NCBI RefSeq assembly: GCF_012641515.1
Contig: NZ_JABAHY010000006.1
Location: forward strand, 62,001 to 126,000
DNA length: 64,000 bases
Direction: 5' to 3'
Source of the DNA: Nesterenkonia sedimenti
Lineage (GTDB): Bacteria > Actinomycetota > Actinomycetes > Actinomycetales > Micrococcaceae
The notes under the pieces were generated by a model, which did no database searches, was not told the origin of the DNA, and saw only the letters and a list, made by a program, of their open reading frames with translations. Numbering within the stretch: position 1 is the first letter of the stretch; each line of letters begins with the position of its first letter. Shown here in pieces: positions 9,381 to 35,800 of this stretch. The position numbers and the translations under genes were made by a program.

Positions 9381-10949
9381 TCAGCTTTTCCCCAGCGCGG
9401 CCGAGCGGAACTGCTCCAGCTCCTCCTCGGTGAGGTCGACCTCGTGCTCGTCGTCGCTGGAGAGGTCGTCGGCCTTGGGCAGGCGCAGGGTCATCGTCGC
9501 ACCGCCGCCGGGGGTCTCCGAATGACGCACACTGCCGCCGTGCTGTGAGGCAATGGCCGCGCAGATCGCCAGGCCCAAGCCGGTGCCGCCGGTTTCGCGC
9601 TGGCGGGAGTTATCGGCCCGGTAGAAGCGCTCGAAGATCTTCTCCACATCCTCCGTGTCGATCCCCTCGCCGTGGTCGCGGACCTGCAGCACGGAGAACA
9701 GCTCCTCAGTCTCGGCATCGGTCTCAGTGCCCACGGCCAGTTCCAGGGGAGTCCCATCGGGGGTGTACCGCAGGGCATTGGTCACGAGGTTGGTGACGAT
9801 CTGGCGGATCTTGCCCTCATCGGCGACCACGGGGGCCGGTGTGGGGGCGTCGTCATTGAGTCCCACGACCTGCACTTCGCGGTCGGGGGCGTTGACCGTC
9901 ATATCCATCACCGACTCATGGGCGATGATGTTCAGATCCATCGGAGCCATCTCCAGCGCGCGCTGCTCATCCAACCGGGCCAGGGTCAGCATGTCCTCGA
10001 CCAGCTGCCCCAACCGGGTGGCCTCAGATTCGATCCGCCCCATGGCAGCGCCGACGGCCTCGGGGTTATCGCTGAGCCCACCCTGGCGGTACAGCTCGGA
10101 GAAACCGCGGATGGTCACCAGGGGAGTGCGCAGCTCATGGGAGGCGTCCTGAATGAACTGACGCATCTTCTGCTCGGAGGCCACCTGCGCCTGGAATGCG
10201 GTCTCGATATGCTCGAGCATCACGTTCAGCGAGGAGGCCAGCCGGCCGATCTCGGTCTCCGGTGGGGCGGTGGTGCGCACACGCTGGGAGAAGTCGCCGT
10301 CGGCGATTGCGGCAGCAGTCTTCTCCACCCGAAGCAGGGGACGGAAGGCACGGGTGGCCAGGGAGTAGGCGATGATTGATGCGCCCAGGGTGGCCAGCAG
10401 GCCGATAGTGGCCACGAGGAAGCTGGCCCGTTCCACGGAGTTCTCCACGCTCTCCAGGGGCAGAGCGATGATGACTGTTTCCTCGCCGTTCTGCAGGGGG
10501 TGTGCCTGCACCCGGAATCCGCGGGAGTGCTCCTGGGTGCCATCCACCTCGAAGGACTCCAGGTTCAGCTCAGCGGCCTCTTCCGGGGTCAGCCGGGGCA
10601 GCTGCGGGATATCGGCGGTCTCAGAGTTCGAGGCGCGCACCGAGAGCCCCGGAATCGGCTCACCCTCTTCATCCAGCATCCACCCGTGGAACCGGAAGAT
10701 GGACTGGTACTCCGCCCAGCCTGGCTGATCCTCCTCGGCCCGGATGTTGTAGAAGTAACTGGACAGCGCCTGCGCATTCGAGCGCAGGTCATCGTCCATA
10801 TTCCGGGTCAGCTCCTGCCGAAACAGGGATGCGGACACAAAGGTGGTCACCACCAGGGTCATCAGCAGCAACCCGGAGGTGATGGCGACCAGCTGCGTGC
10901 GCAGGGAGGTTCTCCGCCAGGCACGCCCGATCGCGGAGATTACATGCAT
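9381..10949 (-). CDS. Sensor histidine kinase
   Basis: The 522-residue kinase has a first transmembrane helix (about 15-37), an extracytoplasmic sensor of about 120 residues, a second helix (about 163-185), a HAMP domain, a HisKA box (QDASHELRTPLVTIRGF), an N box (IVTNLVTNALRYTPDG) and G boxes (DHGEGID, GGTGLGLAI). The sensor resembles PhoR/TrcS-like corynebacterial kinases without being diagnostic. The ATG at 10949 lacks a ribosome site but has TACACT (10957-10962 on the other strand) 7 nt upstream, so it may be made leaderless from its own promoter as well as from the upstream regulator gene. Confidence 0.9.
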   Translation of the reverse strand: MHVISAIGRAWRRTSLRTQLVAITSGLLLMTLVVTTFVSASLFRQELTRNMDDDLRSNAQALSSYFYNIRAEEDQPGWAEYQSIFRFHGWMLDEEGEPIPGLSVRASNSETADIPQLPRLTPEEAAELNLESFEVDGTQEHSRGFRVQAHPLQNGEETVIIALPLESVENSVERASFLVATIGLLATLGASIIAYSLATRAFRPLLRVEKTAAAIADGDFSQRVRTTAPPETEIGRLASSLNVMLEHIETAFQAQVASEQKMRQFIQDASHELRTPLVTIRGFSELYRQGGLSDNPEAVGAAMGRIESEATRLGQLVEDMLTLARLDEQRALEMAPMDLNIIAHESVMDMTVNAPDREVQVVGLNDDAPTPAPVVADEGKIRQIVTNLVTNALRYTPDGTPLELAVGTETDAETEELFSVLQVRDHGEGIDTEDVEKIFERFYRADNSRQRETGGTGLGLAICAAIASQHGGSVRHSETPGGGATMTLRLPKADDLSSDDEHEVDLTEEELEQFRSAALGKS

Positions 10950-10956
10950 GGGGTCA

Positions 10957-10993
10957 AGTGTAAGCGCTAGTCAGCCCGGAATGCCCGGGCTGA
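10957..10993 (-). promoter_or_regulatory. Hairpin and leaderless promoter between regulator and kinase
   Basis: TCAGCCCGG (10971-10979) pairs with CCGGGCTGA (10985-10993), a 9-bp stem directly after the response-regulator stop. Just downstream in the direction of transcription a TACACT box lies 7 nt before the kinase ATG. Together they suggest partial termination followed by re-initiation, letting kinase and regulator be set at different levels. Confidence 0.5.
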
Positions 10994-10998
10994 GCGGC

Positions 10999-11730
10999 TC
11001 AGCCTAGGCCCTGAGTGCGCTGGCGGCGCTCCCAGGTTTGGAGCACATAGCCGACGCCGCGCTTTGTCTGGATCGCCGGAGCGCCCTCGGCCCCGGAGTC
11101 GATCTTGCGCCGCAGGTAGGAGATATAGGACTCCACAATGGAGGCATCCCCATTGAAGTTGTACTCCCACACGTGGTCCAGAATCTGCTGCTTCGACAGC
11201 ACCCGGTTGGGGTTCATCATGAGGTAGCGCAGCAGCTTGAACTCAGTGGGGGAGAGGTCGATGATCTCTCCGCTGCGACGGACTTCATGGGCGTCGTCGT
11301 CGAGCTCAAGGTTGTCGATAGTGATGACCGCATCCTCGTCCTCATAGGGAGCGGTGCGGCGCAGAACTGCCTTGATCCTAGCGACCACCTCATCCAGGGA
11401 GAACGGCTTGGTGACGTAGTCGTCACCGCCGACGGTGAGGCCGGTGATCTTGTCATCGGTGTCATCCCTGGCGGTCAGGAACAGGACGGGGAAGTGCTTC
11501 CCGGAGGCCCGCAGCCGCCTGGTGACGGTGAAGCCATCCATATCGGGCAGCATCACGTCCAACACCGCCAGATCCGGATGGAACTCCTCGGCGGTGTCCA
11601 GTGCCTCGCGGCCGTTGGCGGCAGCGGCCACATCGAATCCTGCGAAGCGCAGGGAGGTGGCAAGCAGTTCACGAATATTGGGTTCGTCGTCGACGACGAG
11701 CAGTTTGGCTTCCGGAGTTTTGTCAGTCAC
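10999..11730 (-). CDS. OmpR/PhoP-family response regulator
   Basis: The 243-residue protein has a receiver domain (LLVVDDEPN acidic pocket, phosphoacceptor in LAVLDVMLPDMDGF, lysine in GGDDYVTKPFS) and a C-terminal winged-helix OmpR domain (LSPTEFKLLRYLMMNPNRVL, ending KRGVGYVLQTW). The GGDDYVTKPFS string is typical of the PhoP/TrcR-like actinobacterial branch. The start is a GTG at 11730. It is transcribed with the histidine kinase downstream and should be its partner. The regulon is not visible here. Confidence 0.9.
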   Translation of the reverse strand: MTDKTPEAKLLVVDDEPNIRELLATSLRFAGFDVAAAANGREALDTAEEFHPDLAVLDVMLPDMDGFTVTRRLRASGKHFPVLFLTARDDTDDKITGLTVGGDDYVTKPFSLDEVVARIKAVLRRTAPYEDEDAVITIDNLELDDDAHEVRRSGEIIDLSPTEFKLLRYLMMNPNRVLSKQQILDHVWEYNFNGDASIVESYISYLRRKIDSGAEGAPAIQTKRGVGYVLQTWERRQRTQGLG

Positions 11731-25616: not shown

Positions 25617-26030
25617 CTAACTGATTACCGAGAGGAGGTCGGTGCAGGCTTGTTCGCAGCGTCGGCAGGCTTCGGCGCAAACTCGGCAGTGCTCGTGCAT
25701 GTCAGCGTGCTTTTCGCATTCAGCGGCGCATTCTGCGCATGCGGTCCTGCATGCTTCAATCGCTGCCTTGACCGTGGTGAGGTTTTGACCAGTCCGGCGG
25801 CTAAGGACAGCGCCGGTCGTTGCGCAAAGATCAGCACAGTCAAGGTTGAGACGGATGCAGTTACGCAGATCGGTGACCACCTCTTCTGCTAAGCAAGCAT
25901 CAGCACACGCAGTGCATGCCTGGGCGCATTCGAAACAGGCCGCGATACAGTCGGCCAGTTCCTGAACGTGAAGATCAGTTGTGCCGTTGGGGTGTGTTTC
26001 GATCATTGAGGTTGTGGTGGTGTGTGTCAT
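25617..26030 (-). CDS. Cytosolic copper-storage protein, Csp3 type (DUF326)
   Basis: The 137-residue four-helix-bundle protein carries 18 cysteines, most in CXXXC spacing along the helices (for example CIAACFECAQACTACADAC and CRVCAEACRRCEQAC). This is the pattern of Csp copper-storage proteins, in which cysteines line the bundle and bind many Cu(I) ions. No signal peptide is present, so it is the cytosolic Csp3 class. A GGAG ribosome site precedes the ATG. A CopR-type repeat lies about 95-115 bp upstream. It is part of a copper island with cueP, a DUF305 protein and a two-component system. Confidence 0.88.
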   Translation of the reverse strand: MTHTTTTSMIETHPNGTTDLHVQELADCIAACFECAQACTACADACLAEEVVTDLRNCIRLNLDCADLCATTGAVLSRRTGQNLTTVKAAIEACRTACAECAAECEKHADMHEHCRVCAEACRRCEQACTDLLSVIS

Positions 26031-26282
26031 CGCTGTGCTCCTTCATCTTTCGATCAAGTGCCGGAGGGCCCCGGACCATTTCGACGCTACTGGCCAGTTG
26101 TGACAAGGACAACAGTTCGGAGCCGAACTTCACACAATCTTCATGTCGGGGCGCACGGGAGAGTGCATGCGATAAATAGAGTGAAGAACCTCGCCTCAGG
26201 GCTCTTCAGGGCGGCGACGGTTGAGTCAACGGCTCTGGGTGGCGGTTGGCTCATTACAGTGGCGAGGCACAGGGCACCGGAT
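26031..26282. other. Intergenic region between csp3 and cueP
   Basis: Apart from the CopR-type repeat and the csp3 leader, nothing is recognised. Open frames on the plus strand are antisense to cueP and have no features of their own. Confidence 0.4.
26124..26143 (-). promoter_or_regulatory. CopR-type direct repeat upstream of csp3
   Basis: Minus strand: TGAAGATTG-TG-TGAAGTTCG, two 9-bp direct repeats separated by 2 bp (11-bp period). Similar pairs occur at 27677-27696 and 28942-28961. I recall the C. glutamicum CopR site as TGAAGATTT repeated with 2 bp between; the match is close. Confidence 0.7.
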
Positions 26283-26875
26283 TCACGCGAGTTGCGACGA
26301 GGTGAGGCACGTCGGATCGCCTTCTCCGGTCGAGATCGGCGCGGTCGAGGTCAGACCATCGTGTTCAATGCTGAGTTCGGCGTCTATGTCGCGGGGTAGC
26401 CACAACCCGAAGAACCCGTTGTCGTGTGTCTGCACGGTTTTGTCGACCAGGACCTCGCCGGTGGCCTCTTCAATGACAGTCACCTCCAGTTCTTCATCGC
26501 GCATCTCTCCGACACATGTCGTCAAACTGTGGAAGAAGCACTCATGGGTCTGATTCACGTAGGGTGCGACCGAAAGGTAGAACTCGTCCTCAGGCAGGGG
26601 CACCGATGATTCGTTGCCATCCTCATCGATCATCACAACTGCTTCTGTTTCTACGGTGCGACAAAATCGGTGGGCCGCTCCGCCAACGGCAGCCTTTCCA
26701 GCTCCTCGACAACCTCACGTCCGGAGGCGTCCTGCAGCCCGGAGGCTGAGAGCGCACTGTTGCTGCCCCCAGAAGGGGCTGAGGGGTCTTCAGATGAACA
26801 TGCTGCAACAAACACCATCGCTGCCAGGACCGCAGCGCTCGTGCTGAATCGTCTGGTGTGACTGGCCCAGATCAT
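26283..26875 (-). pseudogene. cueP: CueP copper-resistance lipoprotein, split by a one-base frameshift
   Basis: The first part (ATG at 26875, AGGAGG site) encodes a lipoprotein signal (AAVLAAMVFVAACSSED) and the CueP N-terminal part (VVEELERLPLAERPTDFVA). It stops at a TAG near 26650. The rest is in the next frame and carries the CueP hallmark VAPYVNQTHECFFHSLTTC, with the copper-ligand cysteines, and FGLWLPRDIDAEL. One missing base in GCACCGTAGAAAC would restore VETEAVVMIDEDG and one continuous protein of about 197 residues. CueP binds periplasmic copper. The gene follows the DUF305 gene by 61 nt and is probably in its operon. Confidence 0.8.
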
Positions 26876-26936
26876 GGTGGGGGTCCTCCTAGGTACTGAG
26901 GGTTTCGACGAGTTCTGTAGGAGCGCGGGTGATGGG

Positions 26937-27605
26937 TCAGAGGCTGTCGCGCATTTCTTCCATCTCTTCGATCTCTGCAGACTGGTCGGAGATGACGTTC
27001 TCTGAAAGTTCAAGGGCCTCTGGATTCTCCCCCGTTTCGAGGTGGTCTTCTGCCATACTCACGGCACCTTCATGGTGAATGATCATCTGGTCTAGAAACA
27101 GGCGGGACGCTTCGTCCCCCTCGGCAGACTCTAGATCAGCGAGGTCTTCCTCACTCATCATGCCATCGTGGCCACCATCGCCCATCATGCCGTCGTGGCC
27201 ACCATCGCCCATCATGCCGTCGTGGCCACCATCGCCCATCATGCCGTCGTGGTCGCCGTCGGGTCCATTACCCCAAGTCTCAAGCCACGATTCCATCTGC
27301 TCGATCTCGGGCTGCTGAGCGGCTCGGATGTCTTCTGCCAAAGCCGAGACCTCGGGATCGGCATCATCGGTCTGTAACAAGATATCCGACATTTCCACCG
27401 CCTGCTGGTGGTGAACTATCATCCCGGAAACGTACTCGACGTCGGAATCGTTGTACTCGCCGCCATTGGCAGGGTCAGTCTGTTCGTTCTGCGCAGCCGG
27501 ATCGTCGGCGGGGTCTTCGGCGTCCTGAGCGGGACCTCCACAAGCGGTAAGTGCAACAGATACCGCAAACACACTGACCGCCACAGCACTGAGTCTAGTC
27601 TTCAT
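26937..27605 (-). CDS. DUF305 lipoprotein with His/Met repeat insert
   Basis: The 222-residue lipoprotein (lipobox VALTAC) has a split DUF305 domain, whose paired metal-like motifs are MIVHHQQAVEMSDILL and MIIHHEGAVSMAEDHL. Between them lie four copies of a nine-residue repeat, G-G/D-HDGMM-G-D, rich in His, Met and Asp. DUF305 proteins are often found with copper and silver resistance genes, and the insert could bind copper. The ribosome site AAAGGAGAT and a CopR-type repeat 72-91 bp upstream fit copper induction. It probably leads an operon with cueP. Confidence 0.87.
   Translation of the reverse strand: MKTRLSAVAVSVFAVSVALTACGGPAQDAEDPADDPAAQNEQTDPANGGEYNDSDVEYVSGMIVHHQQAVEMSDILLQTDDADPEVSALAEDIRAAQQPEIEQMESWLETWGNGPDGDHDGMMGDGGHDGMMGDGGHDGMMGDGGHDGMMSEEDLADLESAEGDEASRLFLDQMIIHHEGAVSMAEDHLETGENPEALELSENVISDQSAEIEEMEEMRDSL
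27157..27264 (-). repeat. 27-bp tandem repeat inside the DUF305 gene
   Basis: Four 27-bp units (27157-27183, 27184-27210, 27211-27237, 27238-27264) encode the His/Met-rich nonapeptides. Units 2 and 3 are identical, unit 1 differs at one base and the last is more diverged. Such near-identical in-frame units can expand or shrink. Confidence 0.9.
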
Positions 27606-27676
27606 GCCTTGATCTCCTTTGAATTGGTTCGCCTCCAGTAGACATGAGGATCAAGCCGCCAGTCTTGCCAGAAGCG

Positions 27677-27696
27677 GGTTCTTCAGAGGATCTTTA
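27677..27696 (-). promoter_or_regulatory. CopR-type direct repeat upstream of the DUF305-cueP operon
   Basis: Minus strand: TAAAGATCC-TC-TGAAGAACC, two 9-bp repeats separated by 2 bp. It lies 72 bp before the DUF305 start. The first half differs from TGAAGATTT at three positions. Confidence 0.6.
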
Positions 27697-27735
27697 GAAA
27701 AGCTACACTCCCGCTTGATACGGGGCACTCGGAGC

Positions 27736-28869
27736 TCACGTGCCCGCCGGCCACAGCCGCGGCGGTCTCAGAAGCACTTCCAGGGGCCCTCGGGTGACCA
27801 GCCGGCGCCAGGTGAGTGAAAAAACTATAAGCGCGACAAGGATCAGGGCACTGACCACCAGCCCTTCAGGAAGGGTCGCAGGCCCAGGTCGGACCGCGAG
27901 GGCAAGAATCAGCAGATGACCCACGTAGGCAGTGAAGGCCAACTGCCCCAGCATCACCAGGGGCTGCAGCCATCTTTGGACGCAGCGGTCAGCAATCTTC
28001 AGACACACTCCCAACATAAGGATGGCCGCGCCAGTGCCTTCAACCAGCCACAGCGGCATCTGAGAATGAGCCACAGAGCTGATCAGCCGTTGCCACACCA
28101 GATGACCGGTGGGCTCACCCATATAGACAATGAGTGCAAACGATATTGTCCTGGCTCCGAGGGCGCTCACAGCGCCCCACTTGATGAGTCGGGTGCTCAG
28201 GAGCTGACTGGACAGGTCCCGCCGCCCAAGCCACATCCCGAGGAGGAACGGGGCAGCCCATACTGCCACGGGATAGGGCCCAGTGATGAAAGTGCCGGCC
28301 AGGAGCTCTCCGGGGGAATCGGTGGCTGTCAGCGGATCCCGGTCGAAGGCCTTGTCGGTGCGTTCCTGAACCGCGAGCCACAGTATGGGTCCGAGCGAGG
28401 CACTGAATCCGGCAATAACAAGCAGCACGCCCCCGGCGGCCCGAGTGAAGGGCAGCGCCACGATAAACAGGGCAGCGTAAGTCACTAGAATCACTGAGAC
28501 GCCGTGGTCCAGGGCTTGGAGGAGCAGCCCGCCCACGAACAGCACCAGTGCCCGCCACAGGATAGGTCCCGCCGGTATTGGAGTTTCTCCGCTCCGCGCT
28601 CGCCGGGTCAGCAGGGAGAACCCGATGCCCCCTAAGAGCATGAACAACAACGAAGCCCGCCCGTAAGGCAGGCGGTAAAGTATCTCGGCCAAGCTGTCTC
28701 CGCCGCGAGGCCCGACATTGACGACGATCATGCCCGCCACGGCGAGACCCCGAGCCGCGTCCAGTCCGGCGAGACGCCACGGGCCTGGCCCCTCGCTCTG
28801 CTCGAGGGAGGACGTGCTATTAGGTGGCAAGCTCGCTCTCCCTGGCTCAGAATTCGGTCTTCGGTACAC
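27736..28869 (-). CDS. DUF1624/DUF418-type acyltransferase-like membrane protein
   Basis: The protein (about 377 residues) has roughly ten hydrophobic helices. It begins the conserved part with RLAGLDAARGLAVAGMIVVN, typical of the heparan-alpha-glucosaminide acetyltransferase-like (DUF1624) fold, and ends with LTWRRLVTRGPLEVLLRPPR, typical of DUF418. Such proteins may move acyl groups across the membrane. The GTG at 28869 is preferred: it has GGAAAAG before it and lies downstream of a TAGCCT box (28892-28897, minus strand), whereas the longer frame begins upstream of that box. The CopR-type repeat 73-92 bp upstream ties it to the copper island. Confidence 0.75.
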   Translation of the reverse strand: MYRRPNSEPGRASLPPNSTSSLEQSEGPGPWRLAGLDAARGLAVAGMIVVNVGPRGGDSLAEILYRLPYGRASLLFMLLGGIGFSLLTRRARSGETPIPAGPILWRALVLFVGGLLLQALDHGVSVILVTYAALFIVALPFTRAAGGVLLVIAGFSASLGPILWLAVQERTDKAFDRDPLTATDSPGELLAGTFITGPYPVAVWAAPFLLGMWLGRRDLSSQLLSTRLIKWGAVSALGARTISFALIVYMGEPTGHLVWQRLISSVAHSQMPLWLVEGTGAAILMLGVCLKIADRCVQRWLQPLVMLGQLAFTAYVGHLLILALAVRPGPATLPEGLVVSALILVALIVFSLTWRRLVTRGPLEVLLRPPRLWPAGT

Positions 28870-28941
28870 GCTAACTTTTCCGCGACCTTCTAGGCTAGAC
28901 AACCGCCGTAGCTGAACGGTTCAATCAAGGGCCCCTTGGTC

Positions 28942-28961
28942 GAATCTTCATTGAACCTTCA
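28942..28961 (-). promoter_or_regulatory. CopR-type direct repeat upstream of the DUF1624/DUF418 gene
   Basis: Minus strand: TGAAGGTTC-AA-TGAAGATTC, the best-conserved of the three 9-2-9 repeats. It lies about 45 bp before the TAGCCT -10 candidate and downstream of the kinase stop codon. Confidence 0.75.
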
Positions 28962-28995: not shown

Positions 28996-30114
28996 TCAGT
29001 CATGACGCGGCAACTCCACTGTAAAGAGTGCACCATGCCCCGGTCCGCGGCTTTCGGCCCTTACAGTGCCGCCATGGGCTTCAACGATGGAGCGCACGAT
29101 CGTCAGCCCGATACCGGAACCGCCGTGGGCGCGGTCACGGGCGGTGTCGACACGGTAAAACCTTTCGAACAGGTGAGGAACGTGCTCTGGCGCTACCCCG
29201 TGACCAGTATCTTCCACGCTGAGAAGAACCGTCGCTGAGTCGCTGCCGGTTCGAAGAGTGACCTGATCACCCGGTTGCGTGTGACGCAAGGCATTGTCTA
29301 GCAGGTTCGTCAGAACTTGTGAAAGGCGGTCACGGTCCCCGACCACCATGGCCTCCTCGGCCTCTTCCTCAATCTGCAGATCGACGTCACGCGCTGCGTA
29401 AAAGCTACGGGCTTGTCCCTGCGCGACGCTGACGAGTTCAGCGACCGAGATAGCCTGGGACTCCATGCTCAATCGGTGTTCTTCGGCAGAGCTCACCAGT
29501 GAAACGTCCTCCGCGAGACGCTTGAGACGATCAGTCTGCTCACGCAGCATGGTCAGTATTTCTGAATCGGCGGCCGCCACCCCGTCGAGCATCGCCTCCA
29601 GATAACCATCGACGGTGGCTACAGGTGTTCGCATCTCGTGAGCCAAGTCAGACAGAAGTCGCTTTCGAGTATGTTCGATCTCGTCGAGTTCCGAAGCCAT
29701 TCGATTGAACGCCGAAATCATCTCGGTGAATTCTGCACCCATGGCGCCCTCTGGCACTCGGGCACTGTAAACGCCTTGCGCCACCTGAATCGCAGCGCTA
29801 CGCACCTTGTTCAGGGTGCCTGCGATGCGGCGGGCAAGAAAGGCACTGACCAAAACGGACGCTACCCCGGCTGCAATCAGGGCCAACAACAAAGAGAGCT
29901 GCCACGATGCGTCGAAGGCCTCCTCAGCGTGCTTCACCACCTCTGGGTCCGGATTGGAAGTCTCAACCATAAGCATGTGCTCGTGGAAAATCGCTGGTCC
30001 GATGGCAAGGGCCACGACCCAAGCTGTCAGAGCCCCAACCCCAAGGACAAGAATGGCAGCCAGAAGTATCCGGACCCCAAGCCTGGCGCCCCACGGTTGC
30101 CGGTCAGGCATCAT
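28996..30114 (-). CDS. CopS-like sensor histidine kinase
   Basis: The 372-residue kinase has two transmembrane helices (about 13-35 and 74-94) enclosing a very short sensor of about 40 residues that contains HEHMLMVETS, a His/Met cluster that could bind copper. A HAMP domain, HisKA (DLAHEMRTPVATVDGYLE), N box (LTNLLDNALRHTQPG) and G boxes (DTGHGV, GGSGIGLTI) follow. It overlaps the response-regulator stop by 4 nt (ATGA). Its place between copper genes and the repeats upstream of them suggest it is the CopS of a CopRS system. Confidence 0.85.
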   Translation of the reverse strand: MMPDRQPWGARLGVRILLAAILVLGVGALTAWVVALAIGPAIFHEHMLMVETSNPDPEVVKHAEEAFDASWQLSLLLALIAAGVASVLVSAFLARRIAGTLNKVRSAAIQVAQGVYSARVPEGAMGAEFTEMISAFNRMASELDEIEHTRKRLLSDLAHEMRTPVATVDGYLEAMLDGVAAADSEILTMLREQTDRLKRLAEDVSLVSSAEEHRLSMESQAISVAELVSVAQGQARSFYAARDVDLQIEEEAEEAMVVGDRDRLSQVLTNLLDNALRHTQPGDQVTLRTGSDSATVLLSVEDTGHGVAPEHVPHLFERFYRVDTARDRAHGGSGIGLTIVRSIVEAHGGTVRAESRGPGHGALFTVELPRHD

Positions 30115-30821
30115 TCGCCCGTCCGCAACTTATATCCCACGCCACGCACGGTATGAATGAAGCGAGGCCAAGCGGGGTCGTCATGTATCTTTCGCCGGAG
30201 GTTGCCGATGTGCACATCGACCAAATGCTCATCTCCTATCCACTCTTCACCCCAGACTTTGGTAATCAGTTCGCGGCGGGACTTTGCGGTCCCGGGTTCA
30301 GTGATCAGAGCTGACAGCAGCTCAAACTCGGTCGGGGTCAACTCCACTTGGCTGTCGTCAAGCCACACTTCGCGCGCGCTCGTGTCCACCATCAGAGCTC
30401 CCGCCCTGTGCCGGTGCCTTTCTGCTGCCGACTCAGGACGCGACCGCCGCAGCATAGCGCGGACCCTCAGCACCAGTTCACGCGGGCTGAAGGGTTTAGT
30501 CACGTAATCATCGGCGCCCACCGACAAACCTATGAGACGGTCCACCTCATCAGCGCGAGCCGTCAGCATAATCACATAGCAGTCTGAGAAAGTTCGGATC
30601 CGCCGGCACACTTCCACCCCATCCATCCCAGGCAACCCCAAATCGAGGACCACAACGGTCGGTTCAAGCTCAGCTACCATCTGCACCGCGTCAGGACCGT
30701 TTCCGGTGGCCTCGACACACAGCCCATCCCGGCGCAGATACTCCTGGACCAGGCGCACCAGCGGCGCCTCATCGTCCACTACGAGCACAGTTGGCAATTC
30801 AGTTCTCGTTCTAGAGGCCAT
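30111..30821 (-). CDS. CopR-like response regulator
   Basis: The 236-residue OmpR-family regulator has a receiver domain (VLVVDDEAPL, phosphoacceptor in VVVLDLGLPGMDGV, lysine in GADDYVTKPFS) and a winged-helix output domain (LTPTEFELLSALITEPGTAK, ending TVRGVGYKLRTGE). The ATG at 30821 is chosen over a longer frame: a TATGGT box lies 6 nt upstream and the extra residues look like non-coding sequence. Its likely sites are the 9-2-9 repeats at 26124, 27677 and 28942. Copper as signal is inferred from neighbours. Confidence 0.85.
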   Translation of the reverse strand: MASRTRTELPTVLVVDDEAPLVRLVQEYLRRDGLCVEATGNGPDAVQMVAELEPTVVVLDLGLPGMDGVEVCRRIRTFSDCYVIMLTARADEVDRLIGLSVGADDYVTKPFSPRELVLRVRAMLRRSRPESAAERHRHRAGALMVDTSAREVWLDDSQVELTPTEFELLSALITEPGTAKSRRELITKVWGEEWIGDEHLVDVHIGNLRRKIHDDPAWPRFIHTVRGVGYKLRTGE

Positions 30822-31055: not shown

Positions 31056-32203
31056 TGGTCCGTCTCAGTTTTGGTTTGCCTGTTCGTTGAGGCTGGCTCG
31101 TGCTCGGGCGACTTTTGCCAGGATTGACTCGGCGGTGGCAGTCCATACATAGGGTTTCGGGTCCTGGTTGTTGGCTTCCATATATTCTTCGATGCTGTCG
31201 ATGAGCTCCGGTACTGAGCGGAACATCCCGCGGCGCAGGTTCTTCTCGGTCAGGTCTCGGAACCAGCGCTCGACCTGGTTCAACCACGACGCGGAAGTCG
31301 GGGTGAAGTGGAAATGGAACCTGGGATGCTTCCTGGTCCATTCTTTGACCTTGGCGTGCTTGTGGGTGGCGTAGTTATCTAAGATCAGATGGACATCCAG
31401 GTCATCAGGGACCTCGCGGTCGATCGTTTTGAGGAACTTTAAGAACTCTTCGTGCCGGTGCTTGGGCAGGCACTGGCCGATCACTTTGCCGGTGAGCACA
31501 TCCAGTGCCGCGAATAACGTGGTGGTGCCGTGGCGCTTATAGTCATGGGTCATCGTCGCACCTCGGCCAGGCTTCATCGGCAGCGAGGCTTGGCTGCGAT
31601 CCAGGGCCTGGACGGAGGACTTCTCGTCCATCGCTAGGACCACGGCCTGCTCGGGAGGGTTGAGGTAGAGTCCGACAACATCAATGACCTTCTCATCGAA
31701 GGCCGGGTCATTGGAGACTTTGAACGTATCAACCCGGTGAGGTTTCAACCCCAGCTCACTCCAGACCCGGTGGACTGTCGAGTGCGAGATTCCCAGCTCT
31801 TTGGCCAGTGAGCGGGTCGACCAGTGGGTTTCGCCCTTGGGCGTGACCTTGGTGGTCATCCGCACGATCTCAGCGATGGTCTCTGACGGAATGGAGGGTT
31901 TGCGGCCCCGGCCTTTCTTCACCTTGCCCCAATGCTTCAGGCCTTCAGTGGCGAACGCCGAGCGCCAGGCTCGTACTGTCATCGGTGAGATCCCGTGCTC
32001 TGCAGCGATGGTGCGGTTGCCGGCCCCGTCAGCAGCAGCCAACAGCACCCGGGCCCGGATGACTTCCCGGTGAGCTGCCGAAGTAGAGCGGGCGACCTTA
32101 GCAAGCACTTCACGATCAGTGTCGGACATAACAAGAGGCGGGGCTGGAGCAGACATACTCCATTCTACCCCTAGACGACCTAACTATTTACGAGACACAC
32201 CAC
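31055..32203 (-). mobile_element. IS630-family insertion sequence
   Basis: The element of about 1149 bp has terminal inverted repeats, GTGGTCCGTCTC on the left and GTGGTGTGTCTC on the right read inward, and is flanked by TA on both sides (31053-31054 and 32204-32205), the target duplication of IS630 elements. It carries one intact transposase gene. It sits just downstream of the orphan NlpC-type promoter. Confidence 0.85.
31065..32156 (-). CDS. IS630-family transposase
   Basis: The 363-residue DDE transposase has N-terminal helix-turn-helix domains (GNRTIAAEHGISPMTVRAW and LGISHSTVHRVWSELGL) and the catalytic core: first Asp in VVLAMDEKSSVQALDRSQ, second in VHLILDNYATHKH, and Glu in SASWLNQVERWFRDLTEK. 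It is full length with no interruption, so the element may be active. Confidence 0.93.
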   Translation of the reverse strand: MSAPAPPLVMSDTDREVLAKVARSTSAAHREVIRARVLLAAADGAGNRTIAAEHGISPMTVRAWRSAFATEGLKHWGKVKKGRGRKPSIPSETIAEIVRMTTKVTPKGETHWSTRSLAKELGISHSTVHRVWSELGLKPHRVDTFKVSNDPAFDEKVIDVVGLYLNPPEQAVVLAMDEKSSVQALDRSQASLPMKPGRGATMTHDYKRHGTTTLFAALDVLTGKVIGQCLPKHRHEEFLKFLKTIDREVPDDLDVHLILDNYATHKHAKVKEWTRKHPRFHFHFTPTSASWLNQVERWFRDLTEKNLRRGMFRSVPELIDSIEEYMEANNQDPKPYVWTATAESILAKVARARASLNEQANQN

Positions 32204-32205
32204 TA

Positions 32206-32287
32206 GAAGGTCAAGATGCTGATCCCACCCTCTACCGACGGTCAATTACAACCCTCGCAACTACCAGTAGCCGAATGAACGTCGCCG
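32206..32287. other. Spacer between IS630 and the monooxygenase gene
   Basis: No gene or site is recognised. If the IS is removed, the frame from the orphan promoter would meet a TAG at the junction. Confidence 0.4.
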
Positions 32288-33352
32288 TTACGAAGCCTCT
32301 CGTGCGAGGCGATGGGCCAGCCTCTCAGCGTCTCGGCGGACATAGCCGAGCAATGAAGACCCTCGGTCGCGCTGCCACGGACGCCCCAATGTGTAGAGCC
32401 CCTCTACAGGAGTGACGCCGTCTTGGTTGGTAAGGGCGCCGTTTTCGTTGAGCGCACCGGGGATATCAATCCAGGTGTCGTCATGCCGATATCCCGTAGT
32501 CCATACAACTGTGTCTACCTTGATATTCGTGCCGTCTTCGAAAGAGAGACGATCCGTGTGGGCCTCCACGGTTCTTGGTCGGAAACTGACCGCGGCCCTG
32601 CGGAGACGTCGACGACTGGTGCCGATTACCGGCTCATTCGCGCGCAGGCGACGGCCCAGGCGTGAACTTCCAGCAACGCCGATGAGACCTGTGGTCGTCA
32701 ACCACCAGAACAGATCACGCCCTAGGAGACGCTGTGGCAAGCTACGCAGACCTGCACCTTCGGATAGAGAAACTCTCTTCCCTTGGTTGGCGAGCTCCAA
32801 CGCGATTTGGAATCCAGAGTTTCCACCCCCGACGACAGAGACGTTGTCACCGCGTAGCTGACTTGGGTTCCGATAGTCCTCGGAGTGGATCTGCAAGACC
32901 TGCGGGTCAAGTCTGTTGGCCAGACCGGGCACGAAGGGTGACCCGAAAGCCCCGGTCGCGACGACAACAGCTCTCGCCCTCAGGGGCTCCCTGCTTGCGA
33001 AGCGCAGCCGAAAATCCCCTGCCGCTCCGTTCAATCTCGTCATGCGGGTGTCGAGGTGAACGGGTAGGGCGTACCGCTGGGCATATGTGGCTAGGTAGTC
33101 AGCCACCTTATCTTTGCCAGGGTGTGTCCCCGGTTCACCAGGAAAGTCGAATCCAGGCAGCGAGTTGTACTACACAGGGGTGAACAAGCGCAGAGAGTCC
33201 CAGCGGTGTGCCCATGAGATGCCCACCTTGTCGGTCGCATCGAGTAGTTGGAAGCTCATTCCTGCTTCGGCCAGGTAGTACCCGAGTGCAAGACCTGCTT
33301 GGCCCGCACCGATAACTGCCACATCGAGATGTTTGTACGTTGCTGGACTCAT
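32288..33352 (-). pseudogene. Flavin-containing monooxygenase with an in-frame TAG
   Basis: The frame of 355 codons encodes a FAD/NADPH monooxygenase: FAD motif VIGAGQAGLALGYYLAEAG near residue 12, FMO-like segments WDSLRLFTPV and LPGFDFPGEPG, NADPH motif VVGGGNSGFQIALELANQG, and VVWTTGYRHDD near the C-terminus. A single TAG at 33170-33172 (codon 61) falls between FTPV and YNSLPG, where relatives usually have Arg or Lys. Nothing else is damaged. The start overlaps the ATPase stop by 4 nt (ATGA), so it is the last gene of the cmtR-ATPase operon. Without suppression it is inactive. Confidence 0.8.
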
Positions 33353-35343
33353 GGCTGTACTTGATGGTCCGAGCCTGCTCCTGCCTTGGCGGAGACAACA
33401 GGACGTGATGAGGGGTGAGAGTGGCGGGTGCGAGCCGCGCGTAACCCGTTGAGAATGATGACGACCTCGGCGAGTTCGTGGACGAGGACGACGGCGGCCA
33501 GGCCGATCACGCCGAAGAGCGCCAACAGTGGTAACACCGCGATCAGGGTCAAGGAGAGGATGATGTTCTGGTTGATGATCATCCGTCCGCGCCGGGCGTG
33601 CGCCAGGGCTTGAGGGATCAGGCGGATGTCTTCGCCGGTGAAGGCCACATCAGCTGATTCCACTGCGGCATCGGAGCCAGTGGCGCCCATGGCGATGCCT
33701 ATATCTGCGGCGGCCAATGCGGGGGCGTCATTGATGCCGTCACCAATCATTGCCACCCGGTTGCCTGCCCGCAGTTCGGTGATGGCGGCGGCTTTGTCTT
33801 CTGGGCGCAGCTCTGCGCGGACATCAGTGATCCCGGCTTCAGCCGCTAGAGCATGGGCTGTGCGTGTGTTGTCACCGGTGAGCATGGTGACCTTGACCCC
33901 GGCACGGGTAAGCTGCTGGATCGCTTCTACTGCTTCTTCGCGCAGTTCGTCCCGCACACCGACAGCCCCGACTGCCTCCCCATTATGGTGGATGACCACC
34001 ACGGTGCTGCCTTCCCGTTCCAGTTCTGTGACTTCTTCGGACAGCGCCCCGGCATCAAGCCACCGGGGACTGCCCACCGCGATCCGGCTGGCACCGATAA
34101 CTCCGGTGATGCCCTGTCCAGGGTGCTCAGTGATTTCAGTGGCCTGCGGGGCATCAGCCGCCGCATGAGTGATGGCTACCGCGAGGGGGTGCGTGCTGTG
34201 AGCTTCCAGCGCTGCTGCCCACGTCAGTACCTGCTGCTCGGTGTGCCCGGGTGCGGTCAGCACGGCGCTGACGGTGGGACGGTTACGGGTCAGTGTGCCT
34301 GTCTTATCGAAAGCCACGTGACTTACAGATCCCAGTTGCTCGAAAGCTGCACCGGATTTCACGATCACCCCGTGCTTGCTGCCCCCGCCGATGGCAGAGA
34401 CCACGGTGATCGGCACCGAGATCGCCAGCGCACATGGTGAGGCGGCCACCAGCACGATGATTGCCCGGGTCACCCACTCCATCGGGTCTCCGAAGAGTGA
34501 ACCCAGCGCCGCGATCAGAATCGCCAGCAGCAGTACACCGGGCACCAGGGGACGGGCGATCCGATCAGCCAGCCGGGCACGTTCACCCTTCTCCGCCTGA
34601 GCCTGCTCGACCAACTGGACCACTGTGGTCAGCGAGTTGTCTGTTCCCGGTGCGGTGACTTCGACCTCCAACACCCCGGTCGTGTTGATCGACCCGGCCA
34701 ACACCTCATCACCAGGGCCAGCCTCCACCGGAATCGACTCACCAGTGATCGCTGAAGTGTCCAGGGCTGAACGTCCGGTGCGGACCACCCCGTCAGTGGC
34801 TAGGCGTTCCCCAGCTGCAACCCGGATCAGCTGACCCGGCACCAGAGTAGAGGCAGCCACCTGCCGCTGATCGCCAGCCTCGTCGACGATGGTGGCGCTG
34901 GCTGGCAACAGGTTCAGCAGGGAACGCAGCCCGGAGTGGGCCTTGTCCATCGCCCGATCTTCCAAGGCCTCTGCAATGGAATAGAGAAAGGCCAGAGCTG
35001 CGGCTTCTTCGATGTAACCCAGCGCAACCGCTCCAGTGGCGCTGATCGTCATCAACAACCCGATACCCAGGCGGCGACGCACCACCAGCGCCCGTAAAGC
35101 ACCAGGAACGAACTGAGAAGCCCCCAACAGCAGGCTGACCCAGAACACCGCCAGCGTCACAGTCGAAAGCGGGTCCTGATCTGCTGCCCCGGTCCACTCC
35201 AACACCCACCCTGTGGCCAGCAGCAACCCCGAGACCAGTGGAATCAGAACACGACGATCCCCCCACCACTGAGGCTCTTTAGTGCTCTCCGCAGAAGCCG
35301 TGTTCTCACTGGGGGAAGCACACCCGCAGGCATCCACGCTCAT
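33349..35343 (-). CDS. Heavy-metal P-type ATPase (SPC type, P1B)
   Basis: The 664-residue metal pump has the actuator motif SAITGESIPVEAG, phosphorylation site FDKTGTLTRNRP, nucleotide-site HSTHPLAVAI, and hinge MIGDGINDAPALAAADIG. The metal-site helix reads AASPCALAIS: SPC rather than CPC, which in the P1B classification points to group 4 (Co, Ni, Fe, Zn or Cd). There is no separate heavy-metal-binding domain, only a short Cys-containing start (DACGCASPSE). The ATG at 35343 overlaps the ArsR-family stop (ATGA). With a CmtR-like sensor upstream, cadmium or lead export is the best guess. Confidence 0.9.
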   Translation of the reverse strand: MSVDACGCASPSENTASAESTKEPQWWGDRRVLIPLVSGLLLATGWVLEWTGAADQDPLSTVTLAVFWVSLLLGASQFVPGALRALVVRRRLGIGLLMTISATGAVALGYIEEAAALAFLYSIAEALEDRAMDKAHSGLRSLLNLLPASATIVDEAGDQRQVAASTLVPGQLIRVAAGERLATDGVVRTGRSALDTSAITGESIPVEAGPGDEVLAGSINTTGVLEVEVTAPGTDNSLTTVVQLVEQAQAEKGERARLADRIARPLVPGVLLLAILIAALGSLFGDPMEWVTRAIIVLVAASPCALAISVPITVVSAIGGGSKHGVIVKSGAAFEQLGSVSHVAFDKTGTLTRNRPTVSAVLTAPGHTEQQVLTWAAALEAHSTHPLAVAITHAAADAPQATEITEHPGQGITGVIGASRIAVGSPRWLDAGALSEEVTELEREGSTVVVIHHNGEAVGAVGVRDELREEAVEAIQQLTRAGVKVTMLTGDNTRTAHALAAEAGITDVRAELRPEDKAAAITELRAGNRVAMIGDGINDAPALAAADIGIAMGATGSDAAVESADVAFTGEDIRLIPQALAHARRGRMIINQNIILSLTLIAVLPLLALFGVIGLAAVVLVHELAEVVIILNGLRAARTRHSHPSSRPVVSAKAGAGSDHQVQP

Positions 35344-35702
35344 CGCTGCACCTGCTCTCCGCCAGCGCAGCACCCCTCCGGGCACACCGGGTCAAGACAC
35401 TCCGCACCCTCATCGACTGCCAGGGTTGTCTCCACCAAAGCGTTCAGCGCCCGCGACAGGTGAGGGTCAGCGATCTCATAGCGGGTCTGACGGCCCTCCG
35501 GCTCAGCGACCACGATCCCGCAATCCCGCAAGCACGCCAGATGATTCGACACATTCGTCCGCGTCAACTCCAGGTCACGGGCCAGCTTGGCCGGATAATC
35601 CGGCTCATCCAGGAGGGACAACAAAATCCGGGACCGGGTGGGGTCAGCCATAGCGCGGCCCAACCGGTTCATCACATCAAGACGAGAAGCAATAGTCAGC
35701 AC
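35340..35702 (-). CDS. CmtR-like ArsR-family metal sensor
   Basis: The 120-residue winged-helix repressor closely resembles mycobacterial CmtR: ADPTRSRILLSLLDEPDYPAKLA, then TRTNVSNHLACLRDCGI with the two metal-site cysteines, EGRQTRYEIADPHLSRAL, and a third cysteine in DEGAEC. More cysteines follow in the tail (DPVCPEGCCAGG). CmtR releases DNA when it binds Cd(II) or Pb(II). The GTG at 35702 is chosen because TATGGT lies 6 nt upstream; a longer frame reads through the promoter. It heads the operon with the P-type ATPase and the monooxygenase. Confidence 0.85.
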   Translation of the reverse strand: MLTIASRLDVMNRLGRAMADPTRSRILLSLLDEPDYPAKLARDLELTRTNVSNHLACLRDCGIVVAEPEGRQTRYEIADPHLSRALNALVETTLAVDEGAECLDPVCPEGCCAGGEQVQR

Positions 35703-35708
35703 ACACTG

Positions 35709-35734
35709 ACCATACAGCGAACGATGACTAGTCA
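35709..35734 (-). promoter_or_regulatory. Promoter and candidate operator of the cmtR operon
   Basis: TATGGT (minus strand, 35714-35709) lies 6 nt before the GTG start, and a perfect 10-bp palindrome, TGACTAGTCA (35725-35734), lies just upstream, in place for a repressor. Confidence 0.5.
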
Positions 35735-35800
35735 GCAAGTAGTGACCTAACCAGAAGGCTACCTTCAGTACGCGGGAGGTTGCAGGCGCACCTGGTGGGC

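Follow-up and report, generated by a model that had tools for sequence, protein, structure and literature searches.

A 64 kb stretch of the Nesterenkonia sedimenti genome (contig NZ_JABAHY010000006.1, positions 62,001 to 126,000; hereafter the window, out of 3.11 Mb in 64 contigs) carries a minus-strand series of copper genes, in the order copR, copS, a DUF418 membrane protein gene, DUF305 (copM), a split cueP and csp3, among which lie three CopR-type boxes, sites 1 to 3 (Table 1). The boxes are real and conserved, and from the sequence we consider it very probable that the phosphorylated response regulator, CopR~P, activates csp3, copM-cueP and the DUF418 gene under copper through them. In the mechanism we propose, the short His/Met loop of CopS would sense excess copper outside the membrane, the kinase would phosphorylate CopR, and CopR~P would bind the two 9-bp half-sites, set at an 11-bp period, in each of the three boxes. 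It would thereby activate, rather than repress, three units: the DUF418 gene, coding for an envelope acyltransferase-like membrane protein; copM-cueP, coding for secreted copper binders; and csp3, coding for a cytosolic copper sponge.

The initial annotation had described three 9-2-9 direct repeats on the minus strand and had noted a likeness to the CopR box of Corynebacterium glutamicum. Reading out the sequence confirms the repeats: site 1 reads TGAAGATTG TG TGAAGTTCG, site 2 TAAAGATCC TC TGAAGAACC and site 3 TGAAGGTTC AA TGAAGATTC, at 93 bp (csp3), 71 bp (DUF305) and 39 bp (DUF418) from the start codons used here. The likeness is to the published box itself, TGAAGATTTnnTGAAGATTT, a 9-2-9 element tested by electrophoretic mobility shift assay (Schelder et al. 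2011, PMC3140484; here and below, cited papers are drawn on for the portions of their text at hand), from which sites 3, 1 and 2 deviate by 3, 4 and 6 mismatches, respectively, counted over its 18 fixed positions.

Under a first-order Markov null, 0.000 sites with ≤3 mismatches, 0.1 with ≤4 and 8.7 with ≤6 are expected per 64 kb, and by mismatch count sites 3 and 1 come out ahead of all other window positions. Matches as good as sites 3 and 1 are thus rare by chance (≤0.1 per 64 kb), whereas site 2, at 6 mismatches, is not significant by that count. A consensus scan as the sole method was dropped as too weak for site 2, and a matrix together with conservation was used instead. The matrix was built from 25 distinct boxes, all outside Nesterenkonia, and is independent of that genus and not of the published motif, because the 25 were picked for closeness to it; with scores of 29.2, 19.8 and 14.9, sites 3, 1 and 2 rank first, second and third of 127,962 window positions. 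In 3.1 Mb of simulated third-order Markov sequence no position reaches the score of site 1 or site 3 and 14 reach that of site 2 (0.29 per 64 kb). Four close relatives (L088-L091, from Nesterenkonia and Garicola) share sites 2 and 3 as conserved blocks, and site 1 is conserved in L088 and L091, the two that can be aligned there. Site 2, weak alone, rests on conservation; other Nesterenkonia clusters have boxes of 4 mismatches, 77-81 bp before DUF305, that align with it. That the repeats are chance occurrences in DNA that happens to carry copper genes is suggested by the mismatch count of site 2, and is contradicted by the mismatch null and the matrix simulation for sites 1 and 3, by the three top ranks under an outside matrix, by the conservation and by the specificity of the spacing (see below); we regard it as extremely improbable.

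The spacing is strict. Across 116 loci (1.77 Mb, near-identical loci kept), half-sites with a spacer of 2 occur at 56 sites with ≤2 mismatches, and no such site occurs with spacers 0, 1 or 3-7. For surveys of distinct promoters, near-copies were removed and a box was taken as ≤4 mismatches: boxes precede DUF305 in 14/34 (9 of these 14 in sense orientation, 77-81 bp upstream), copR in 8/28, the heavy-metal-associated (HMA) protein gene in 5/22, DUF418 in 6/43, CueP in 1/9 and the F510_1955 family gene in 11/13, and none is found before the oxidase (0/5) or ATPase (0/4) genes. Control spacers 1, 3, 4 and 5 give 0-1 each for DUF305, F510_1955, HMA, copR and DUF418. The F510_1955 family protein (L024:609-1538 and relatives) is a strong candidate CopR target in its own right, and in two genomes, G119 and G089, a CopR-type box of 2-3 mismatches is followed downstream by a DUF885 gene (L204:6456-8281; L216:6043-7989).

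In a scan of all contigs, only site 3 and C25:2475 match the 20-mer at ≤3 mismatches; each lies in a cluster of the copRS type, and a backward-read control gives no match. A 16-position pattern at ≤2 mismatches falls inside the three copper clusters, which at about 19 kb make up some 0.6% of the genome by our estimate, in 4 of 5 places; at ≤3 mismatches it has 16 places (control 2), of which these clusters account for 5. Nine of the other 11 lie within open frames of ≥100 codons, a test that tells little because two copper boxes (L010, L012) also sit in such frames. Among the near-matches, C45:111408 (2 mismatches) is inside a 727-codon frame, and C1:242921 and C19:12518 are outside frames of ≥100 codons, with no copper gene seen by eye among their neighbours. 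Two more copper clusters lie in the same genome. C26 (5,680 bp) comprises copRS and genes for DUF418, DUF305, an HMA protein and a protein of the F510_1955 type; boxes of 4 mismatches precede DUF305 and stand between the HMA and F510_1955 genes, and the DUF418 box has 6 mismatches. C25 (7,614 bp) comprises a copS-like end, DUF418 of a second type, a multicopper oxidase gene and another csp3 copy, and a box of 3 mismatches falls between its DUF418 gene and the oxidase unit.

The two-component system beside the boxes is close to that of C. glutamicum, whose CopS loop residues are H39, H41, M42, M44 and H56 (PMC3140484). The short His/Met sensor loop remarked on by the initial annotation has this very pattern: FHEHMLM with a later His gives H-x-H-M-x-M in the order of H39, H41, M42 and M44, plus a later His. 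CopR is of the OmpR family, its recognition-helix region, LVDVHIGNLRRK, being near the canonical IVDVHIGNLRRK in an alignment with 17 other loci, and 9-2-9 boxes of the form TGAAGATTT are nearby; in C. glutamicum, changes to the half-sites abolish CopR binding to TGAAGATTTgaTGAAGATTT and changes to the linker do not (PMC3140484). Of 80 loci fetched by CopS, 73 (L088-L160) cover most of the protein and 7 are weak; in all 56 canonical ones (L104-L149 and L151-L160; Corynebacterium, Rothia, Dermabacter and others), copR has upstream of it, on the way to the CueP gene, a box of 0-2 mismatches. Directly upstream of copR in the window and the Nesterenkonia clusters read, no box of ≤4 mismatches is found within 350 bp. 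We therefore file the window CopRS as a variant layout working like that of C. glutamicum, in which, unlike there, autoregulation through a box is not seen.

For C. glutamicum just one box is reported, situated between copR and the divergently oriented genes, and neither csp3 nor DUF418 is named as a target in the available account (PMC3140484), whereas here boxes stand at several effectors. Deleting copR in Corynebacterium crenatum lowers copS and cueP mRNA by 78-98%, so that CueP is already a CopR target there; the terms "copper storage" and "acetyltransferase" are not found in the portion of that text at hand (PMC11124244). In our judgement the window system extends the CopRS regulon within its island and is not a new kind of system. 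OmpR-family boxes often share the 11-bp period, and a second OmpR-type regulator/sensor pair lies in the window at 9474-11721, both of which would speak for operators of some other OmpR-family regulator in place of CopR. The recognition helix of that second regulator differs, however (VESYISYLRRK), the repeats fit the CopR box in sequence and the csp3 box tracks CopS across genomes (see below), which makes this explanation very unlikely.

Two-component control of csp3 is, in our judgement, the most useful prediction drawn from these sequences. The window product is homologous to the cytosolic copper storage protein 6q6b over 129 residues, has 18 Cys and no signal peptide that we could see by eye, and contains a motif, KHADMHEHC, taken by eye as the His near the bundle mouth; a three-His site is described in the literature. 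Copper-dependent upregulation, as expected of a copper buffer, was unseen for Csp3 in most bacteria tested, although csp3 of Streptomyces lividans rises at 400 µM copper (PMC6747150); SCO3281, the csp3 of S. coelicolor, falls in germinating spores in one comparison (PMC6414726). Against this background, the CopR box proposed for csp3 sets it apart.

Of 92 distinct csp3 promoters, 16 contain a box, against 0-3 for other spacers and 0.00 for shuffles; antisense boxes lie 96-108 bp upstream of the gene, and sense boxes 91-94, 135 or 224-230 bp. Spacer-6 matches occur in 3 of the 92 at ≤4 mismatches and in 8 at ≤5, and no separate motif is claimed, since 7 of the 8 sit in promoters with a spacer-2 box. 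The family survey covered 194 genomes, with csp3 in 75 and a match to the CopS amino-terminus in 38 (E ≤ 0.01) or 35 (≤ 0.001); csp3 upstream DNA was read in 57 of the 75 (73 copies). The box is present in 13 of 17 CopS-positive and 0 of 40 CopS-negative genomes (Fisher 1e-9, uncorrected for kinship), and within a single genus, g4, in 6/6 versus 0/2. Outside the family, Corynebacterium mucifaciens (L134) and Georgenia satyanarayanai (L102) also have boxed csp3, with copS again some 5-6 kb away. The C. mucifaciens box, flanked by csp3 and a DUF1541 gene (L134:14277-15148), may serve both, DUF1541 being presumably a CopL-type copper lipoprotein family, and in five genomes with similar modules (L056, L057, L087, L199, L207) an NlpC/P60 peptidoglycan hydrolase gene divergent from boxed csp3 may likewise share the CopR box.

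For the DUF418 protein, the AlphaFold2 (AF2) model (predicted local distance difference test, pLDDT, 85.9; predicted template modelling score, pTM, 0.84) has the fold of HGSNAT (Z 24.0 over 296 residues, 3.8 Å, 16% identity), followed by GWT1 (Z 14.9) and then a next row at Z 4.6; the C25 relative matches PF07786, HGSNAT_cat. On this predicted structure, it is best read as a putative transmembrane acyltransferase. D48, R51, H279 and H329 are invariant in the alignment, and the His are no mark of copper because they are also present in unlinked DUF418 relatives. Unlike HGSNAT and DUF418 acyltransferases at large, the window protein is linked to copper regulators. In a tree of 32 rows, clade A, with the window protein (9 rows, support 96/84), and clade B, with the C25 relative (4 rows, 100/100), are both copRS-linked, and 19 other rows fall outside them. 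In the best tree, A and B together form one side of a branch supported at 51/76, so weak that one recruitment and two look the same; two separate recruitments had been our earlier reading and were dropped once this branch was found. Box-like sites follow the types: among 15 A-type rows (assigned by us), 13 have one at ≤6 mismatches and 9 at ≤5, against 2 and 0 of 24 other rows, and 3 of 4 B-type rows have one at 2-3 mismatches; among the other rows, those of L057, L087 and L082 are unboxed in spite of a csp3 nearby. In two loci of one genus (g22; L080, L082), DUF418 adjoins csp3 with no box at ≤4 mismatches and no CopS in the stretch, an arrangement that is a CopR-independent gene-neighbour tie of DUF418 to copper. 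The tie of Csp3 and DUF418 to the copper response, put forward by the initial annotation, thus stands insofar as the box links recur elsewhere, and induction by copper through CopR is what the sequences predict.

A different explanation accepts the boxes as true CopR operators, of which only those of copM-cueP and other copper genes matter, while those at csp3 and DUF418 are bystanders by proximity or serve a divergent neighbour. In 11 of the 13 boxed-csp3 genomes, copS is indeed less than 7 kb from csp3 on the same contig (of the other two, G107 would have it within this distance only on a circular contig, and in G090 copS and csp3 are on different contigs). The csp3 boxes are often antisense with a divergent gene beyond, NlpC/P60 in five genomes (G119, G034, G102, G003, G090) and DUF1541 in C. 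mucifaciens, and a single C. glutamicum box acts in both directions (PMC3140484). Yet the divergent gene varies from case to case with csp3 and the antisense distance (96-108 bp) unchanged, two loci (L200, L207) have boxed csp3 with neither copR nor copS in the 13 kb read around it, the window csp3 box is in sense orientation, and other genes of such loci, the ATPase and oxidase, are unboxed. All in all, we find this explanation unlikely.

Beyond the weakness of site 2, a number of observations weigh against control of all three units by CopR. csp3 is mostly part of a copRS island, and since co-occurrence with CopS is tied to gene linkage, its box may be inherited with the island; box orientation varies, and a divergent gene can share the box in antisense cases. 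Boxes are lacking in 4 of the 17 CopS-positive csp3 genomes (in G083 with csp3 about 4.5 kb from copS), in further csp3 copies elsewhere in boxed genomes, in the C25 csp3 copy (9 mismatches), in the clade-B DUF418 of L203, and in DUF418 genes near csp3 in L056, L057, L087, L080 and L082. Clade-B loci have a paralogous CopRS whose sensor loop is different, so the regulator there may differ and may perhaps be the paralogue. Conservation of the loop in CopS-fetched loci is partly built in, FH[ED]HMLM having been a search pattern, and CopS of L198 deviates (FHEHLEQ in place of FHEHMLM). Many motif matches at ≤3 mismatches are probably chance, and in C. glutamicum, of 46 near-matches, only one site bound CopR (PMC3140484). 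The ambiguous origins of DUF418 and the placement of most boxed csp3 in the copRS island are what lower our confidence in the acylation hypothesis given below, slightly favour the bystander explanation and lower our confidence in activation of the three units by CopR~P, which nevertheless is the reading we prefer.

The middle unit, DUF305/CopM and CueP, is known copper biology. Window DUF305 scores 115.9 bits against NCBIfam CopM (cut-off 90) and contains a 27-bp tandem repeat (27156-27252; 3.6 copies, 98% matches) coding for the Met/His-rich HDGMMGDGG; DUF305 of L024 and L088 has different or shorter Met/His inserts. The Synechocystis CopM (DUF305) is a copper protein in an operon with the CopRS pair that controls it (PMC4335983), a cyanobacterial case that resembles the window in having a copper protein beside a CopRS pair. 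Window cueP (26283-26881) is split over two frames and is a single open frame of 243 amino acids in N. alkaliphila (L088); the split may be genuine or may stem from an error in the assembly.

Table 1. Boxes and genes of the copper cluster in the window, with the evidence for each
Feature	Position	Strand	Evidence
CopR-type box 1 (site 1), upstream of csp3	26124..26143	-	4/18 mismatches; matrix rank 2
CopR-type box 2 (site 2), upstream of DUF305-cueP	27677..27696	-	6/18 mismatches; matrix rank 3
CopR-type box 3 (site 3), between copS and DUF418 gene	28942..28961	-	3/18 mismatches; matrix rank 1; conserved block
copR, OmpR/PhoB-type response regulator	30111..30821	-	Pfam Response_reg and Trans_reg_C; alignment with 17 other loci
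copS, sensor kinase, short extracytoplasmic loop FHEHMLM...H	28996..30114	-	HAMP, HisKA, HATPase_c
DUF418 membrane protein, predicted HGSNAT-like acyltransferase fold, clade A	27736..28902	-	PF04235 1.3e-8
DUF305/CopM-family secreted copper protein, Met/His-rich tandem insert	26937..27605	-	PF03713 1.2e-47; NF049983 CopM
Split cueP, amino-terminal piece (signal-peptide part, our reading)	26651..26881	-	Frame stops before CueP domain; no Pfam match
Split cueP, CueP-domain piece	26283..26636	-	PF21172 2.1e-45
csp3, cytosolic four-helix-bundle copper storage protein	25617..26030	-	phmmer 2.2e-40 to 6q6b
Transposase adjoining copR, neighbour outside regulon	31065..32156	-	DDE_3 3.1e-23

The copR start at 30821 (ATG) is our reading, the longest frame running from 30881, and the DUF418 start is the listed TTG, a putative start only. 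Gene positions are based on tblastn, automatic frame calls having given spurious frames and missed the window csp3. Window copS is 96-97% identical to copS of N. alkaliphila and N. massiliensis. No near copy of the cluster was found on plasmids, where 4 records covered 1-2% of the query; plasmid relatives of CopS number at least 5000 records and those of DUF418 77, each below 60% identity. Beyond copR, the stretch 31065-35738 holds the transposase, which we take to be IS630-like, an oxidoreductase frame and a heavy-metal P-type ATPase (cadmium-family model) adjoining a small gene that we read as ArsR-like, a separate metal-resistance unit.

In the open-access literature, titles and abstract starts yielded no report on a Nesterenkonia copper cluster or on a copper link of a DUF418/HGSNAT-fold protein, nor, with passages included, on csp3 or DUF418 as a CopR target. 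Our analysis gives such a copper link for the DUF418/HGSNAT-fold protein. Tentatively, and with more doubt than belief, we suggest that a copper-induced HGSNAT-fold protein acylates an envelope glycan or another extracytoplasmic target as a copper defence, alongside two-component control of Csp3; if true, this would be a step of copper resistance not yet described. With the regulator, the box and the genomes with and without the box named, the copper regulation of csp3 becomes directly testable. If CopR does control csp3, copper outside the membrane would prepare the cytosol for copper storage.

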